A stretch of 41,272 nt of DNA from positions 1 through 41,272 of IMG/VR virus record IMGVR_UViG_3300021356_000046, one strand, 5' to 3'. A program made the translations under genes and the position numbers. The DNA comes from a virus. Positions within the stretch are counted from its first letter, which is position 1; each line of letters begins with the position of its first letter. This document shows, in pieces, positions 14,109 through 33,781 of the stretch. A model generated the notes under the pieces. The model had not been told where the DNA came from and searched no databases. It worked only from the letters and a program-made list of their open reading frames with translations.

Positions 14109-14930
14109 GTGGCTTTTAATGTAAATCAGTTTAAATCAAGTTTACATCGGTTTGGAGGACCTGCACACAATGGTCTTTTCCAAGTAATTTTTACAAACAC
14201 TCCTTCACTTCCAGGAACGAGTGCTCGATCTCGTGATCTGAGTTTCTTTTGTAAATCTGTAGCGATTCCTTCAATCAATCTTCAAACATCAGAGTATCAA
14301 GCTGTAGCAGCAAGACCGAAGCAATTTCCAACAGGAATTACTTCAGAACAAGTCAGCGCTATTTTTATGCTTGATTCAAATCACCAGATTCTTTCTTTTT
14401 TACACGGATGGATGCAAAAAGTTTTAAACTATAGTACATCCGGAGGAGCGATGTCAGAAGTTGACGGGATGCTTCCTCACGAAGTTGGATATAAAGACGA
14501 ATACTCTTGCCGTATGATTATTCGTTACTATTCAACATATAATAACGTTACCGGTTTTGGTAACACATTTAATACGGTTTTAAACGTACTTGATTTTTTA
14601 TCAGGAGGAAATTATTATGAAGTTGTTCTTGACAATGCTTTTCCTATAGCTGTAGGAGATGTTGATTTATCTTGGGATAATCAAAACTCTTTTGCTACTG
14701 TTGGTGTAGGATTTTCTTATGATGAAATTAAATACGATGGTGAACGTTCTGGTTCACCTACTGCGAGACTCGGTCGAGGAAATGGATTACTCGATTTACT
14801 TACGACTGTAGGTGTTGTGAGTCAAATGGTGGGTGGTGATTTTAGACCAACCGGCGTTCAAGACGCAATAAATAAACTTACTCGTATTGATAATGCCGCC
14901 ACACAATTGAATGGATTGTTTGGCAACTAA
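14109..14930 (+). CDS. Tail-tube-like protein, candidate baseplate-tube initiator gp54
   Basis: 273 residues, GTG start. The N-terminal AFNVNQFKSSLHRFGGPAHN followed by GLFQVIFTNTPSLPG, then VAIPSINLQTSEY and a C-terminal strand set ending GVGFSYDEIKYDGE, give the general pattern of gp19-type tube proteins, which gp54 and gp48 share. It is larger than a tube protein (T4 gp19 is 163) and nearer gp54 (320). Position next to gp26, gp51 and gp29 also fits a tube initiator. The alternative is a divergent tail tube; the major tube gene is expected next to the sheath gene, which is not in this window. Confidence 0.55.
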   Translation: MAFNVNQFKSSLHRFGGPAHNGLFQVIFTNTPSLPGTSARSRDLSFFCKSVAIPSINLQTSEYQAVAARPKQFPTGITSEQVSAIFMLDSNHQILSFLHGWMQKVLNYSTSGGAMSEVDGMLPHEVGYKDEYSCRMIIRYYSTYNNVTGFGNTFNTVLNVLDFLSGGNYYEVVLDNAFPIAVGDVDLSWDNQNSFATVGVGFSYDEIKYDGERSGSPTARLGRGNGLLDLLTTVGVVSQMVGGDFRPTGVQDAINKLTRIDNAATQLNGLFGN

Positions 14931-14944
14931 TGGAGAAATAAATT

Positions 14945-15646
14945 ATGGCTTTACCTAAAATTGATTTGCCGATTTTTGAGCTTGAACTTCCTTCTACTAA
15001 GAAAAAAGTAAAGTATCGGCCTTTCACTGTCAAAGAAGAAAAAGTTTTACTCGTAGCTCAAGAAGCTGGAGACGCAGAACAAGAGTTGCTTGCATCACGT
15101 CAGGTCGTTAATAATTGTTTGATTGACGTTAATGTAGATGAACTCGCGATGTTTGATCTCGAGTATATACTTCTTGTTTTAAGATCTCGTTCAGTAGATA
15201 ACTCGGTAGCTTTTTCAGTAAAAGATCCCGACACAGACGAAGTCGTGAATCTTGAACTTGATTTAGAAACTGTTACAATCACAAAAAATAAAGATCATAC
15301 AAATCAAATTCGTGTAAATGATGATTATGTTTTATTTTTAAAATATCCCACAATCAATGAATTTGCACAAATTGTAAAGATGGATCCTAAAGATCCTCTT
15401 GTGAATTACTTTATTATGGTTTCGTGTTTAGATAAAATTGCTTCAAATGATGAAGTACATCACTTTAAAGATTACGAACAAGCTGATATCGACGCTTTCA
15501 TGGATAACATGACAGGTGACGTGATTTCTCAAGTTCAAAAATTCTTTACAACGATGCCTAAACTACGACATGATATAAAATATAAAAATAAGAATGGTGA
15601 CGAGAAAACATTTGTAATTGAGGGTATGCGAAGTTTTTTTCTCTAG
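14945..15646 (+). CDS. gp26: Baseplate hub assembly protein gp26 (T4_baseplate family)
   Basis: 233 residues; T4 gp26 has 208. The N-terminus LPKIDLPIFELELPSTKKKV then YRPFTVKEEKVLLVAQEA is the hallmark of this family. In T4 gp26 is needed for hub assembly, and its place two genes before the tape measure is that of gpG-type tail chaperones. A GGAGA site precedes the ATG by 8 bases. The last codons contain a run of seven T (15634-15640) in the register T-TTT-TTT just before CTC and the TAG stop, with a stem-loop downstream; I infer that some ribosomes slip -1 into gp51 (see the signal entry). Confidence 0.88.
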   Translation: MALPKIDLPIFELELPSTKKKVKYRPFTVKEEKVLLVAQEAGDAEQELLASRQVVNNCLIDVNVDELAMFDLEYILLVLRSRSVDNSVAFSVKDPDTDEVVNLELDLETVTITKNKDHTNQIRVNDDYVLFLKYPTINEFAQIVKMDPKDPLVNYFIMVSCLDKIASNDEVHHFKDYEQADIDAFMDNMTGDVISQVQKFFTTMPKLRHDIKYKNKNGDEKTFVIEGMRSFFL

Positions 15647-15703
15647 CGCTGTGCCATACAAATTTGAGTAATTGGTACCAAATGACCTTCGCGTTGGTAC
15701 AGC
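15634..15703 (+). promoter_or_regulatory. Putative -1 programmed frameshift signal joining gp26 and gp51
   Basis: Seven T at 15634-15640 are read as T-TTT-TTT in the gp26 frame, a standard -1 slippery heptamer. Seven bases later a 9-bp stem can form: 15648-15656 (GCTGTGCCA) with 15695-15703 (TGGTACAGC), with one G-U pair. The 3' arm can instead pair with GTACCAA at 15675-15681 to make a smaller hairpin. The -1 frame is open from the slip site through the gp51 stop at 15826-15828. The ATG of gp51 at 15682 has no clear ribosome site. The predicted fusion has 294 residues. Geometry seen in the sequence; frameshifting itself is inferred. Confidence 0.6.
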
Positions 15704-15828
15704 ACCATAAATATAGTATACATGATATAAATGAATTATTGCCTTATGAACGTGACTTATACTTTAATATGTTAATTGATTTTATTGAAAAACAAAAAGC
15801 AGAACAAAACAAAAAGGCGGGAAAGTAA
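15682..15828 (+). CDS. gp51: Baseplate hub assembly catalyst gp51, maybe made as gp26-gp51 fusion
   Basis: 48 residues from the only ATG in frame; the open frame extends upstream to the gp26 slip site, adding 14 residues (SLALCHTNLSNWYQ). The core HKYSIHDINELLPYERDLYF followed by NMLIDFIEKQKAE resembles the short gp51 proteins of marine T4-like phages (a helix with INELLPYER-type pattern). In T4 gp51 is a catalytic, non-structural factor for hub assembly. There is no Shine-Dalgarno before the ATG, so either gp26 translation is coupled to it or it is made by -1 frameshift. Nine bases separate its stop from the gp29 start region. Confidence 0.7.
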   Translation: MTFALVQHHKYSIHDINELLPYERDLYFNMLIDFIEKQKAEQNKKAGK

Positions 15829-15836
15829 AGTAACAA

Positions 15837-17762
15837 ATGGCAGAACTATCAGCAGACACGCTCGCTATTTTAGATGAGCTTGATCGACAGGGTAAACTCT
15901 TACGCTCTGACGGCCGTGCGCATTCAATTAAATCTGTTAAAATTGAAATGAAGAAGTTTCAAGGTGTCTTCGAAGACATCGCAGTAAACATTCAAGCTCA
16001 AACCGATATGATGAGAAAAACTCTGAATATCGAAGAAAGTAGATTAGCTACTCAAAAAAAGCAAGAAGAACTTGCTGAAATTCAAAGAAAAAAAGCTGAA
16101 GAAGAATCTAAGCCTGAAGCTGCAGAAACTGCTAATGATCGAAGACCCGATGGACCCGGTTTATTTAAAATACTCGGTAATGCTTTAGGAAGCATCGGTG
16201 GTCTAGCGATTAAAGGTGCAATTGGAGTGGGAGCGGCTGCTTTAATGTGGCAGTTCGCAAAAGGATTTATTGATGAGCGTGAAGGTGCCGGAACAGCAGA
16301 CGGATATATGGATTCAGTAGTCACTTTCATAGGTGATATGACAGATAAACTCGCTACTGCTCCTACTGTTTTTGAGAATTTAATTACCGCTGCTGAAAAT
16401 GTTGCAACAGAAGCTGGTGAAATTGTTACTGCTTTTGAAGGCGTCAACTGGACAAGTTTAGGTAATGCATTTAAAACTGCCGGCGAAAAGATGGAACCAG
16501 CTGTTGATAGCATTATTGATTTCTTTCAAAATCCTTTAACATATATTCTACCTTCCATTGCATCTGGTGTGATGACTGCGATGATTGGTCGAAACGTAGG
16601 TGCTGCTGCAATGGGTAGAAGTGTACAAGGAGCGCCGATTAGTCCAGGACGAGCTCTTGTTACAGGTGTTACAGGCGCAGTTGCTCTTGGTTTAAGTCTT
16701 TATGGGGATCGTGTAAAAGAATGGATGCAGAATCAAACTTGGTCTGACAATGAAATTGCTGGATATAGATTAGGTGATGCTGCTTCTGAAGCGGTGGGTG
16801 TTGCTACTACGACAGCTCAATTTGCTACAATTGGTGCTATGTTCGGACCGACTGGTATTATTGCAGGTGCATTAATTGGTTTAACAGTAAGTCTTGGAAG
16901 TATTCTCGGAAGATGGATTCAGAGTCGAAAAGATGCAGCAACAGCAGATTTTAATGAAGATGTAAACAAACTTAATCAAATTTTAGAAGAAGTCGAAGAT
17001 GGTAACTTTACTGATGATCAACTTGCCGAGATTGGAAGAATTCGTCAGGAAGCAATCAGAAGAACACAACTTGGAATAGCAGACACGCTCGTAGAACAAG
17101 CACAAGCAACTGCTGATGCAGCTGATGAAGCAATAGGATCTGTAAGAATGGATCCTTCACAAGGTGTAAATGCTTTACAAATACAAGAAACGATTGATAA
17201 AATTTTAGCTGGTGATCAAGCTGCAGTTGAAGAATTAGTGAATTTTGCAGAAGGTCGTGAACGAGAAACAGCAGATAATTTACTTCGATTCTCAAGTAAA
17301 GAAGATTTTATTCGAGACATGATTTTAAATTTTGGTAATCGTATTATGTCTCGTGATGGCGATATGCAAGGTAATGTTGATGATTATACTCGATGGATGG
17401 ATGAAATCGCGCCTGGTATTTTACAACAATATGGATATCGTTTTGGTACACCCGGATTTGTTAATTTTGGAAGAGGAACAAGAGCAACACTTCATGGTAT
17501 GGAAGCAGTTGTTCCAAGAAATACACTCGCAGGTCGTATGTTAGATGCTAACTTTGATGATAACTTTAATCGACTTGAGAGAGTTGCAAACGCAGGAGCT
17601 GGAGGTGCTGGTCACCTTATCATCAATGCTCCTACTACACTCGCACCTAACGTAAATAACGTCGGTGGTCACACAAGTTTATCTACTCACAACGTTGTAG
17701 GTGGAGGCGGTGGCGGGGGAGGCCGAGGCAACCCATACGGACTGCCATCGGCAATTAATTAA
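15837..17762 (+). CDS. gp29: Tape measure / hub protein gp29-like
   Basis: 641 residues; T4 gp29 has 590. It follows gp51 directly and has the make-up of a tape measure: an N-terminal charged coiled coil (about 45-100, rich in Lys, Glu and Gln), hydrophobic helices near 110-140 (GLAIKGAIGVGAAALMWQFA) and around 225-355 with Ala/Gly-rich stretches, another helical part, and a C-terminal GTPGFVNFGRGTRATLHGME, a segment typical of tape measure tails. The C-terminus has a run of eight Gly. gp29 fixes tail length and fills the tube before DNA ejection. Its stop overlaps the end of the opposite-strand gene by four bases. Confidence 0.8.
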   Translation: MAELSADTLAILDELDRQGKLLRSDGRAHSIKSVKIEMKKFQGVFEDIAVNIQAQTDMMRKTLNIEESRLATQKKQEELAEIQRKKAEEESKPEAAETANDRRPDGPGLFKILGNALGSIGGLAIKGAIGVGAAALMWQFAKGFIDEREGAGTADGYMDSVVTFIGDMTDKLATAPTVFENLITAAENVATEAGEIVTAFEGVNWTSLGNAFKTAGEKMEPAVDSIIDFFQNPLTYILPSIASGVMTAMIGRNVGAAAMGRSVQGAPISPGRALVTGVTGAVALGLSLYGDRVKEWMQNQTWSDNEIAGYRLGDAASEAVGVATTTAQFATIGAMFGPTGIIAGALIGLTVSLGSILGRWIQSRKDAATADFNEDVNKLNQILEEVEDGNFTDDQLAEIGRIRQEAIRRTQLGIADTLVEQAQATADAADEAIGSVRMDPSQGVNALQIQETIDKILAGDQAAVEELVNFAEGRERETADNLLRFSSKEDFIRDMILNFGNRIMSRDGDMQGNVDDYTRWMDEIAPGILQQYGYRFGTPGFVNFGRGTRATLHGMEAVVPRNTLAGRMLDANFDDNFNRLERVANAGAGGAGHLIINAPTTLAPNVNNVGGHTSLSTHNVVGGGGGGGGRGNPYGLPSAIN

Positions 17763-24706: not shown

Positions 24707-25896
24707 ATAAACGCCTCTAACGTCGCTTTTGTTTCTTGCATTTCAACCTTCTGACTATGATTATACTGCAAAATGTAGTCTGTGTCAACCAGTGGAAGCT
24801 CATTATTCAAATATTTTTTTACTTCAGTTGCCATATCAGTAGCTGTTTGCACAGGAACGTTTTGACAGATGTGATTAGCACTCTTCTTAGGATTGAGTAG
24901 CTCAAAGTCTGTAGGAAGACCCATAATCGACATTGCTTCACGATAGTTGATATATCGATCATGTACTGGGTGTGTTAACATTGTAGGATAATGACCAACA
25001 AAAGCACCGATTTGTCCTTTTGGAATAATCGTGCCGCGTCTCATAATGTTACCACCAGCTTTAAGTTTATCGTATCGATACTTACATTTCTCGACTTCTT
25101 TGTCGTATCCTTTCTTCTCCATCCATTCGCCAACTTGCATATAGTCATATCCCATACGTTCTATATATGAGAATACATCGGCGTTTCGAACTTTTTGAGG
25201 CTCGCAGATTTTTGCAAACTCAGCATGAGTAATACCGCCATGAATATGTTCTAAAATAAATTTATAATAAAGATCGTCTTGAGAAGGAATCTTTTTATTA
25301 ATTACTTCTGATTGAAAGTTTGACTTTGAAGCTTCGAGTATTACGTCTTCAATCTGCGGAGCTTCTCGATTATACCAATTCATGATCGGTGTTTTATCAC
25401 CTTTCCAAAAGAAGTAAAAAGAACGCTCACGAATTTGAGGACCACCATGAAGTGCAGTCTTTGTTCTATAGACTGACATAGTGTATCCATTGTCTTTACC
25501 AATTTGTCTGATTTGATTACGAACTGTATCACCAATTTTTCCAGCAAAGCCAGGCGCATTTTCTCCCCAGAAAACTGCAGGCTTTAATTCACCTAATACA
25601 TAATTTGCTGTCTCGGTCATCCATCGGTTGTTTTGATTGTCATCACCAAAACCGTGAGAAAGTTGAGATAGACCTGCGCAAGGACATACAGTATGTACTA
25701 CATCTACCTTTTTAGAAGGCTTAGAACCTTCGTCAAGAAGGTGAAAAGGTACATCCGGCATATAATTACGGATGTGGCTATCATTGGCTTCAAAGTCTTT
25801 ATAAGATAAGAAATAATCAGGTTTCTGGCCAAACGCTGCAGTGGCACCTAATGTTTCGCCACCAATAAGTGGTACGATCGAAGCATGGCTAATCAT
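24703..25896 (-). CDS. DNA cytosine-C5 methyltransferase
   Basis: 397 residues. Motifs in order: an altered motif I (SIVPLIGGETLGATAAFG), motif IV TVCPCAGLS with catalytic Cys73, motif VI GENAPGF (112-118), motif VIII PQIRERSFYFFW (RER 156-158), a target-recognition region, and motifs IX-X in YINYREAMSIMGLPTDF and CQNVPVQTATDMA. All catalytic parts are present. It transfers methyl from SAM to C5 of cytosine in DNA and may protect against host nucleases. It overlaps the alpha-glucosyltransferase gene by four bases. Its presence with a dCMP hydroxymethylase is odd, because hydroxymethylated cytosine cannot be C5-methylated. Confidence 0.88.
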   Translation of the reverse strand: MISHASIVPLIGGETLGATAAFGQKPDYFLSYKDFEANDSHIRNYMPDVPFHLLDEGSKPSKKVDVVHTVCPCAGLSQLSHGFGDDNQNNRWMTETANYVLGELKPAVFWGENAPGFAGKIGDTVRNQIRQIGKDNGYTMSVYRTKTALHGGPQIRERSFYFFWKGDKTPIMNWYNREAPQIEDVILEASKSNFQSEVINKKIPSQDDLYYKFILEHIHGGITHAEFAKICEPQKVRNADVFSYIERMGYDYMQVGEWMEKKGYDKEVEKCKYRYDKLKAGGNIMRRGTIIPKGQIGAFVGHYPTMLTHPVHDRYINYREAMSIMGLPTDFELLNPKKSANHICQNVPVQTATDMATEVKKYLNNELPLVDTDYILQYNHSQKVEMQETKATLEAFI

Positions 25897-27128
25897 AGGT
25901 TCTCCTTTATAGTATTCATGAGATCCTGGAATGTAGCGTCAGCGTCTTGATGATCTTTGTAAAATTCATAAGCCATTTCACGATATTCATTACGCATAAC
26001 TGGATCATTTGCCAGTTTTCTCATTTGTTCAAGTGTTTCGTCGTTGCCAGTGCCGTCAGCATGCAACCACAATGTACCATTATTTATGCATTCTGTAAGA
26101 GGCTTTCCTTGTGTACGGTGCACACACACTTCACCGTATTCACGACGAAAGACTGGAACAGCACCAGCAGCGACGATTTCTTGATGAGTATACTCAATGG
26201 AGCGTTCAATATATTTGGGCTTAAGGATACTTAACTGATAACCAAAAGCAACACGTGACATACGATGCATCAAATCATCATTAATAAAGGTGCTGAACAC
26301 GGTTGCTTTATCACCATATCGGTTACTCATATCAAGTAGACCAGCATCTTGATCTAGCTCATCATAAAAATCGCTAAGTTCCTTAAACCCGAGCCAGGCA
26401 GGTGATTTCTCTATACCTTCGAATGTAGTCAACCATCCTTCTTTAGGATTGTTGGCGTTGTGCCATTCGAACATAAGCTTGTATCCTTTCCACGAAGTTG
26501 TTCGACCAATCCACTTGTGATGGAAAGAGTCTTGTTCTTCAATAGGTTTCCAGTATTGAGCTCGAATTCCATCGAAGTCAATACCTGGTTGGAAAGGGAA
26601 AATCTTTTTTACTTCATCATCTAAGAAAGAAGCAAGCCCACCCGATCCAGTGTGTTTACGAACTTCTTCTGAGAAGTCATTACTGGTCGAGTGAGCGAAG
26701 ATGATGTCTGCTGCATCAATCGCTTCTCCTAACGCGCCATTTCGACGGATAGAATAGACGGTGTGATCGTGTTGAATAAGTACAACAGGTTTGTTGAATT
26801 CTGATAAGGCTCTAATCCAGTTCTCAACTGCTTGAGCACCTGAGCCTTTACCACGACCAGTGTCTTTAGATGGAAGGGAATTCACAATGATTGCGTCTGA
26901 TTGATTACACTCGGTAATCATCTTATCAATTAACGCCGAGTCAGAGAACTTGAACCAATCAAATTCACCGAGATCATGTGCATTTTTACGAGAGTAATTT
27001 TTATCTTTTGCTGCGTAAACTTTTACGTTATATCCATTTTTACGAAGCCATTTTACTTGCTCGACTGTGTATTTGGTTACTCCACAACCTTCAACACCTC
27101 GAGCCATAATCACTGAGATATTATTCAT
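25893..27128 (-). CDS. agt: DNA alpha-glucosyltransferase, T4 AGT-like
   Basis: 411 residues; T4 alpha-GT has 400. The likeness to T4 AGT runs the full length: SVIMARGVEGCGVTKYT at the start (T4 has IFMARGLEGCGVTKFS), IQHDHTVYSIRRNGALGE, FPFQPGIDFD, KWIGRTTSWKGYKLMF, FEGIEKSPAWLGFKE, SRVAFGYQLSILKPKYIERS, EYTHQEIVAAGAVPVFR and AYEFYKDHQD near the end. AGT moves glucose from UDP-glucose to 5-hydroxymethylcytosine in DNA and so shields it from restriction. With the dCMP hydroxymethylase at 28322 this gives a complete minimal route. It overlaps the UDG-like gene by 8 bases. Confidence 0.9.
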   Translation of the reverse strand: MNNISVIMARGVEGCGVTKYTVEQVKWLRKNGYNVKVYAAKDKNYSRKNAHDLGEFDWFKFSDSALIDKMITECNQSDAIIVNSLPSKDTGRGKGSGAQAVENWIRALSEFNKPVVLIQHDHTVYSIRRNGALGEAIDAADIIFAHSTSNDFSEEVRKHTGSGGLASFLDDEVKKIFPFQPGIDFDGIRAQYWKPIEEQDSFHHKWIGRTTSWKGYKLMFEWHNANNPKEGWLTTFEGIEKSPAWLGFKELSDFYDELDQDAGLLDMSNRYGDKATVFSTFINDDLMHRMSRVAFGYQLSILKPKYIERSIEYTHQEIVAAGAVPVFRREYGEVCVHRTQGKPLTECINNGTLWLHADGTGNDETLEQMRKLANDPVMRNEYREMAYEFYKDHQDADATFQDLMNTIKENL

Positions 27129-31458: not shown

Positions 31459-31548
31459 CCGTTTTTGCAGTTTTTTTTCAATTTTTTTGCAGCCAGAAAC
31501 CCTTGAAAAATAAGGGTTTTCTGAAAATGCTGCATTTTTTTTGAAAAA
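31459..31548. other. Non-coding spacer: A/T-tracts and a plus-strand terminator-like hairpin
   Basis: GCAGC (31489-31493) with GCTGC (31529-31533) encloses CAGAAACCCTT (31494-31504) with AAGGGTTTTCTG (31512-31523). Eight T follow at 31535-31542, so on the plus strand it is a textbook intrinsic terminator, although both flanking genes run on the minus strand. On the minus strand the flanks are A-tracts leading to the promoter. I see no gene here. Confidence 0.6.
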
Positions 31549-32488: not shown

Positions 32489-32560
32489 CCGTTTTTACGG
32501 TTTTTTTTCAGTTTTTTTTCGCCCGGAAACCGTTGAGAAATAAGGGTTTTCAAAAAAACT
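32489..32560. other. Spacer after fabB: A-tracts and an imperfect hairpin
   Basis: Similar to the 31.5 kb spacer: GGAAACCGTT, a loop with GAGAAAT, then AAGGGTTTTC, flanked by T-tracts on the plus strand. The pairing is less perfect than at 31.5 kb. The two spacers look like copies of one element. No gene seen. Confidence 0.5.
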
Positions 32561-33781
32561 TTAATTTTTTTCAATTTTTTTCAGAATAATTGACCCATTT
32601 GTACCGCCAAATCCGAAAGAATTTGACATAATTACGTCTACAGGAAAGTCGCATCTCTCCATCACGATAGGATATCCTTCTGCTTCTGGATCGAGTTCGT
32701 CAATATTAGCTGAAGCCGCGATAAAATTATGGTTCATCATGAGAATAGAGAAAATTGCTTCATGTACACCAGCTGCTCCTACGCCGTGGCCAGAGAGAGA
32801 CTTAGTAGAACTAATCATCGGCATATCATCACCAAACACGGCTCGAATTGCTCGAAGCTCTACGATATCACCTTTAGGTGTAGCAGTGCCGTGAGTATTA
32901 ATATAATCGATCTTATGATTATCTGCATTCGCGAGTTGCATACATCTCATAGCACCTTCACCAGAAGGAGCACTGATATCGAACCCATCAGATGTAGCAC
33001 CATAGCCTACGATTTCTGCATAGATCTTAGCACCTCTCTTCAGTGCGTGACTATATTCTTCAAGAACTAACGCGCCTGCTCCGCTTCCAATTACGAATCC
33101 ATCACGATTTTTATCATAAGGTCGAGATGCTCGTTCGGGTGTGTCATTATATCGAGAAGAAAGTGCTCGAGCTGCGTCTAACATGCCCGCAAGAGTCCAA
33201 TGTTCTGCTTCACTTCCTCCTGCAAAAATAATGTCTTGTTTACCAGCTTGAATTTTTTCATAAGCTTCACCAATACAATGTAGACTCGTAGTACAAGCCG
33301 AAGCGATTGTAAAACTTAATCCTTGAATTTTAAAAGCAGTAGCGAGGTTTGCAGACACCGTCGAGTTCATTGTTTTAAAAACTCGATAAGGACCTACTTT
33401 AGGAACACCACGGTCACGAATAGTGTCTGCTGCTTCATGTTGTTGTTGAGATGAACTACTACTTGATCCCATGATGAGACCAGTTCGAGGATTTGATACA
33501 AGGCCTGGTGTTAATCTAGCGTCCTCGATCGCTTGTTTTAAAGACAAATAAGCGAGTCCAGCAGAAGGACCCATAAATCGATAGATGTTGTGAGGAATAT
33601 GTTCTTCGGGATTTAATCCACAATTACCTGAGATTGTACTTCTCATATTTACCACTTCAAAGGGCTCATTATGAGTAATACCTGACTTACCTTCGTAAAG
33701 GCTTGTCTTCACAGTTTCTAAGTCATTGCCAAGACACGAGTTTATACCCATGCCAGTTACAACTACTCTTTTCATCCGCAT
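32561..33781 (-). CDS. fabB: 3-oxoacyl-ACP synthase I (FabB)
   Basis: 406 residues, the same length as E. coli FabB, to which it can be aligned from end to end without gaps of note. Catalytic residues are all in place: Cys163 in [11 protein letters not shown], His297 in [11 protein letters not shown], Lys327 and His332 in [47 protein letters not shown] and [10 protein letters not shown] match the family. FabB extends acyl-ACP and is the key step for unsaturated fatty acids in the FabA/FabB route of proteobacteria. It is last in an early operon and starts at a TAATG junction; a second ATG lies two codons on. Likely taken from a host; alternative: FabF. Confidence 0.95.

Follow-up and report, generated by a model that had tools for sequence, protein, structure and literature searches.

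A conserved slippery sequence and a putative programmed -1 frameshift joining gp26 and gp51 in T4-type phages

The adjoining reading frames gp26 and gp51 of the window (the whole stretch analysed, 41,272 nucleotides of the IMG/VR virus record IMGVR_UViG_3300021356_000046) are, with high probability, a single gene, in which a programmed -1 ribosomal frameshift would be the sole or main route to gp51. This reading is inferred from sequence, with no expression data behind it. The features of the locus are presented in Table 1.

A conserved slip site and the -1 frame at the gp26 end

Within the window, gp26 has a good ribosome site and matches the family PF12322 (T4_baseplate) with 173.9 bits, far above the curated cut-off of 24.5, and no other Pfam family was found for it. 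The gene ends in AGT TTT TTT CTC TAG, and the -1 frame then runs without a stop to the end of gp51, which gives 294 residues when the slip follows the second Phe codon. The preliminary description had claimed a terminal T-TTT-TTT in gp26, a 7-base spacer, a 9-bp stem and a 294-residue fusion in an open -1 frame, and all of these held. This layout fits the usual form of a -1 frameshift element, an X XXY YYZ heptamer in the 0-frame phase with a stem or pseudoknot 5-9 nt 3' of it. Since runs of six or more T number about 50 in this AT-rich window, the T run taken alone could be chance, and it is the comparison with relatives that decides.

Table 1. Features of the gp26-gp51 locus in the window
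Feature	Position	Strand	Basis or remark
Tail-tube family gene, directly upstream of gp26	14109..14930	+	phrog_45
Shine-Dalgarno GGAGA of gp26	14932..14936	+	sequence 5' of ATG 14945
gp26, short form, 233 aa, 0 frame, stop TAG 15644-15646	14945..15646	+	PF12322 E=5e-51; phrog_150 E=1.9e-57
Predicted gp26-gp51 long form, 294 aa	14945..15828	+	232 aa in frame 0 plus 62 aa in frame -1; contiguous on phrog_150
gp51 open -1 frame, stop TAA 15826-15828	15622..15828	+	no stop from 15622 to this TAA; phrog_634 E=3.8e-22; phrog_150 positions 228-276
Slippery heptamer T TTT TTT, in gp26 frame	15634..15640	+	
gp51 part translated after the slip (predicted)	begins at 15640	+	
Spacer, 7 nt, includes the 0-frame stop	15641..15647	+	
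Stem 5' arm GCTGTGCCA, putative stimulator	15648..15656	+	pairing and covariation in relatives
Stem 3' arm TGGTACAGC, putative stimulator	15695..15703	+	pairing and covariation in relatives
Predicted junction peptide of the fusion			window SFFSLALCHTNLSNWYQMTFALVQHHK; P-SSM4 LEGLASFFR, expected in the fusion only, the P-SSM4 short form having SFFA as its end
641-aa ORF at tape-measure position	15837..17762	+	position only; no family match in PHROG or Pfam

Elsewhere in the window, two AT-rich segments (31471-31542 and 32501-32581), about 1.03 kb apart, show the same spacing of T7-T8 runs and may be a duplicated intergenic element. A gene for a T4-type alpha-glucosyltransferase lies at 25893-27128 on the minus strand (phrog_2888, E=2e-86); judging from the sequence alone, the phage DNA could be glucosylated.

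A tblastn search with the fusion as query matched 569 phage records, and in the subset of rows inspected the two pieces usually abut in a -1 relation. We read 183 gp26/gp51 junctions, taken from the window, 79 close IMG/VR contigs, further cyanophage-type, pelagiphage and vibriophage contigs, and 12 phage records; scans seeded with HTVC008M and D491s yielded 12 and 2 contigs, respectively. An in-frame T TTT TT[T/C/G] lies in the last codons, directly 5' of the gp26 stop, at 178 of the 183 junctions, whereas of the 41,313 other in-frame codon positions in gp26 only 7 carry this heptamer. Conservation of this kind could not be chance. The gp51 frame is in the -1 relation at 181 junctions; of the two exceptions, L107 is a gene fused in frame by nature and L179 is interrupted by a premature stop. 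Homologues without the heptamer, named in the preliminary description as a possible refutation, are few: five of the 183 junctions (L036 with G TTT TTT, Cygsa01, Ds16CZ, L107 and L179) and also Vibrio phage K469.

The IMG/VR contigs are not all independent, and the codon counts were therefore redone on a set in which sequences differ by more than 8%. The first Phe codon is TTT in 54 of 54 heptamer-bearing non-redundant sequences of the core group (background 78%) and in 66 of 66 of the cyanophage type (background 75%). The Ser, Thr or Ala codon before it always ends in T in the 54 core sequences, where about 43% would be expected per sequence. At the protein column before FF, the ratio of identical codons reaches 2.9, while the gene averages 1.08 (sd 0.26), in a count that includes L036, which lacks the T.

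The frameshift arrangement extends more widely than originally proposed. The slip site was found in cyanophages, a pelagiphage, vibriophages, and Aeromonas, rhizobial, Stenotrophomonas, Acidovorax, Variovorax, Xanthomonas and Ochrobactrum phages. Carriers include the Straboviridae nt-1, QD01, TCU-VP04, AS-zj, 65 and PX29, members of the Kyanoviridae, RHph_Y68 (Pootjesviridae), phiM12, YB07, ACP17, V45v66, X1 and ORM_20. The site is a homopolymeric T7 in the core group and T6 followed by C in cyanophage, vibrio and Aeromonas phages. The slip site, its conservation and the -1-frame coding across the junction are shown by sequence.

Two rival explanations concern the T run itself. One attributes the arrangement to faulty sequencing or assembly of the window contig, or to gene decay. 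Homopolymers are error-prone in general, but over 160 contigs and no fewer than 21 records of phage isolates share the arrangement and the -1 frame is kept at the protein level, so that decay is as good as ruled out and sequencing error is excluded by conservation. The other holds that transcriptional slippage on the T run makes the fusion, for which the T7 of the core group would speak. We regard this as highly improbable: the cyanophage, vibrio and Aeromonas sites have only T6 then C, and RNA stems 3' of a slip site that is strictly kept in phase are typical marks of a ribosomal -1 shift. A run of T6 is shorter than the homopolymers that transcriptional slippage usually needs.

One contig, L107 (IMGVR_UViG_3300049043_000112, 1001-1891), carries gp26 and gp51 fused in frame. 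Compared with neighbours such as L142, its slip site is shorter by two bases (TC), so that it can give rise to the long form alone. The loss may be a real mutation or a consensus error.

Coding before the stop and the absence of gp51 starts

Between the slip site and the gp26 stop, 45 of 46 cyanophage-type sequences have CGN (Arg) as their -1 codon, with all four N in use and V, I or L following, while the 0-frame gp26 residue of the same 46 drifts among A, G, V, E and S. The -1 frame is therefore translated upstream of any gp51 start, and this, an inference from sequence alone, argues against stop-restart as the only route.

The principal rival is translational coupling only, in which a separate small gp51 would be made by termination-reinitiation at an ATG or GTG on the gp26 stop, with no fusion. 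In its favour, 31 of the 44 close relatives in the alignment (about 70%) have TAATG, TAGTG or TGATG; such a start also occurs in vibriophages, YB07, phiM12 and RHph_Y68, and in the heptamer-less Ds16CZ, Cygsa01 and K469. In addition, gp51 was called separately by the annotators of several records. Against it, the window reads TAGCG at the gp26 stop, with GCG in place of a start, and its first candidates in the -1 frame (TTG 15664, ATG 15682 and TTG 15694) all lie 3' of the LxH residues that are conserved in every aligned relative. None of the three has a convincing ribosome site; the earlier statement that the only ATG of gp51 lacks one held in part, the two TTG codons also being present. No ATG, GTG or TTG was found in the -1 frame of L019, L056 and L066 up to the YYQ motif, of ACG-2014i and MbCM1 for about 50 nt past the stop, or of Aeromonas phage 65 within 60 nt of the stop; the record of phage 65 has only an 81-nt ORF annotated at the place of gp51. 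Coupling also leaves unexplained the constraint on the T run, the covarying stems and the coding before the stop. The third feature that discriminates frameshift from restart is the existence of a full-length fused homologue, T4 gp51. A separate gp51 gene is thus argued against by the missing starts and the -1-frame coding, and we consider coupling alone very improbable.

A milder version combines both routes, the frameshift making the long form and some free gp51 arising where an ATG overlaps the stop. This refines the frameshift model and does not exclude it. The heptamer and TAATG do occur together in vibriophages and in about half of the window's relatives; however, the start codon is not conserved, the residue at the stop-overlapping codon being M in 21, V in 10, A in 7 and T in 6 of the 44, as expected of an internal residue. 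We doubt that both routes operate, while some separate gp51 by stop-restart remains conceivable in close relatives with ATG or GTG at the stop.

In Ds16CZ (L093, Ackermannviridae), Cygsa01 (L092) and Vibrio K469 (L209), gp51 lies in the -1 frame with TAATG and no heptamer, and a switch to stop-restart is a possibility there. The records of ACG-2014i, S-CAM1, MbCM1, ORM_20 and AS-zj (L201, L202, L205, L208 and L095) have no gp51 annotated, yet the conserved -1 frame is present.

Downstream RNA structure and the proposed mechanism

The stem of the window comprises 8 Watson-Crick pairs and one G-U, and it is the minimum free energy structure of 15641-15715 (-17 kcal/mol), with a z of -1.6 that is modest for one sequence. 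Over the 75 nt 3' of the heptamer, the mean folding z is about -3.8 in the core group and -2.1 in the cyanophage type, rough values as they rest on mononucleotide shuffles. Across 43 distinct sequences of the window's group, 95.3% of the stem positions are paired, compared with 25-49% when the stem is slid by 1-3 columns, and its covariation score of 0.237, against 0.146 when shuffled, was reached by 0 of 500 shuffles. The core stem pair 30-77 appears as UA, UG, AU, GC and CG; its 3' letter falls on a third codon base of gp51 where the changes are synonymous.

The cyanophage-type hairpin is built differently, beginning 5 nt after T TTT TTC with 11 bp and a 9-nt loop. In it an Ala third base covaries (UA/GC/AU), 94.3% of positions are paired, and 0 of 500 shuffles reached the covariation score. 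The 46 cyanophage-type sequences were chosen for showing the hairpin, which biases the pairing upwards and the covariation less so. The expectation that relatives would keep slip site and stem was therefore met, the stem within the window's group and a different hairpin in cyanophages. No strong downstream hairpin was found by folding the post-heptamer region of the P-SSM4 group, HTVC008M and AS-zj, where it is absent or weak.

Four contigs omitted from the core stem alignment (L060, L067, L069 and L071) carry, in place of the long-range stem, a compact hairpin that directly follows the stop, which folding supports for L060 and L067 and less clearly for L069; a swap of stimulator type is possible. 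The preliminary description had also suggested a switch or pseudoknot through 15675-15681. This segment can pair with the 3' arm in the window, but the pairing is not conserved in the sequences of relatives and the proposal is unsupported.

In the mechanism we propose, most ribosomes would read gp26 to its stop, two codons past the second slippery Phe codon, and yield the 233-aa short form. A fraction would be held at T TTT TTT by the stem starting 7 nt 3' and slip back one base, both tRNA-Phe re-pairing perfectly; reading on past the stop in the shifted frame, these ribosomes would produce the long form, 294 aa in length and ending in a helical C-terminal tail. Ribosomal slippage as the cause and its rate, as well as the fusion protein and its partners, are inferred, without reporter or proteomics data. 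Against the model speak the missing heptamer and the TAATG of Ds16CZ, Cygsa01 and K469, the starts on the gp26 stop in many close relatives, the lineages without a strong hairpin, the low z of the window stem and the lack of a significant fold match to a solved tail-assembly chaperone.

T4 genes 26 and 51 and the marine gp51

Both T4 proteins match PF12322 (gp26 with 215.6 bits, gp51 with 177.5 bits) and are paralogues, encoded on opposite strands. On phrog_150, T4 gp51 covers positions 13-280, while gp26 and gp51 of the window cover 5-232 and 228-276; the C-terminus of T4 gp51 also matches phrog_634. The last residues of T4 gp26, GLKEFFELL, fall at the place that corresponds to the slip site, and the end of gene 26 (TTC TTT GAG) has no slippery sequence. 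Across the junction, T4 gp51 reads VFKLLVNPDEIFTFYQ and the P-SSM4 fusion FFRIALMHADLRGYY at the same place. An HMM of the gp51 tail only matched T4 gp51 at no better than E=0.001 and 18.7 bits (best shuffled decoy 12.1); the link to T4 therefore rests mainly on phrog_150 and phrog_634, the contiguous HMM alignment and the published Fig. S3 of PMC3037559. A T4-style gp51 lies near a minus-strand gp26-like ORF in Aeromonas phage Aes508 and in nearly all of ten T4-like contigs.

T4 thus shares with the window homologous proteins, a short form (gp26) that stops where the slip would occur and a long form (gp51), and differs in having two genes and no slip site. As inferred from sequence, T4 does not frameshift here, and T4 and its close relatives supply the short (26) and long (51) forms from two genes. 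Given that the slip site is widespread in other Straboviridae and beyond, parsimony, without a tree, points to the frameshift as the ancestral state and to two genes as the derived one. On this bolder reading, which we favour with less confidence, an ancestral T4-type phage made both chaperones by -1 slippage, which most relatives sampled would have retained, and in the T4/Aes508 lineage a duplication giving genes 26 and 51 took its place.

Sullivan et al. 2010 (PMC3037559) described the gp51 of cyanophages and vibriophages as lacking the first ~200 aa, with a C-terminus resembling T4 gp51, and Aeh1 as lacking gp51. These are the same ORFs as here; the main text of that paper offers no frameshift explanation (the word "frameshift" is absent). 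The marine "truncated" gp51 is in all probability the frameshift tail of a short/long pair, with gp26 supplying the missing ~200 aa. Of the large Aeromonas phages, AS-zj, 65 and PX29 were covered; Aeh1 was not among them.

T4 gp26 and gp51 are listed as hub assembly chaperones, gp51 being absent from the particle (PMC3004832). By analogy, the short and long forms probably act as a tail or hub assembly chaperone pair like lambda gpG/gpGT, as inferred from the gene arrangement, T4 genetics and the short/long design; no binding or short-form-excess data support it. The -1 frameshift of gpG/gpGT was described by Xu, Hendrix and Duda 2004 and reviewed in PMC5009743. The likeness, which extends to HK97-like phages, lies in a short form and a low-level -1 fusion with a common N-terminus, in a tail-region gene before or near the tape measure, and in products reportedly absent from virions (lambda, PMC5009743; T4 gp51, PMC3004832). 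However, the sequences are unrelated (PF12322 here), no PDB fold match is significant, the slip site here is of T/C type, and the T4 pair is two genes implicated in baseplate-hub and not tail-tube assembly. P2 (gpE/E+E') and Mu are likewise contractile-tail phages with a tail-region frameshift, but no sequence relation was shown and the Mu shift is -2 (PMC5009743). The slip site of P2 is T TTT TTG, the same as that found here in RHph_Y68. A common origin with the known tail-assembly chaperones is not demonstrated.

The claim that the two genes lie right before the tape measure, as gpG/gpGT do, rests on position only, the 641-aa ORF 3' of the pair having no family match; a tail-tube family gene lies just 5'. 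In HTVC008M, gp51 is followed by a further ORF and next by a gene with matches to tape-measure PHROGs. The AlphaFold2 model of the L107 fusion (mean pLDDT 91.9, pTM 0.84) shows a gp26 domain, a junction in or next to helix 233-241 and more helices. In its alignment the short gp51 pieces are misplaced relative to full proteins, and the pLDDT is presumably driven by full-length rows. Against the PDB the fold had no match at E<=0.001, only a weak, non-significant 3fgx_A; named matches in BFVD were mostly gp26/gp51-type proteins.

As the preliminary description had supposed, we found no earlier report of a gp26/gp51 frameshift in the open-access, open-licence literature searched, although one elsewhere is not excluded; T4 itself is without it here. 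If the reading is true, the tail-assembly frameshift extends to T4-type phages, for which the standard review calls the G-T shift conserved "except T4" (PMC5009743). The apparent truncation or absence of marine gp51 would have its explanation, and gene models would be corrected in what are probably hundreds of genomes of cyanophages and vibriophages, in which gp51 often goes unannotated for want of a start. T4 gp26 and gp51, long "hub chaperones" of unknown action, would be equivalents of G and GT and gain a testable mechanism, a short/long pair whose ratio matters, and the family would offer a natural experiment in which gene duplication replaced a frameshift.
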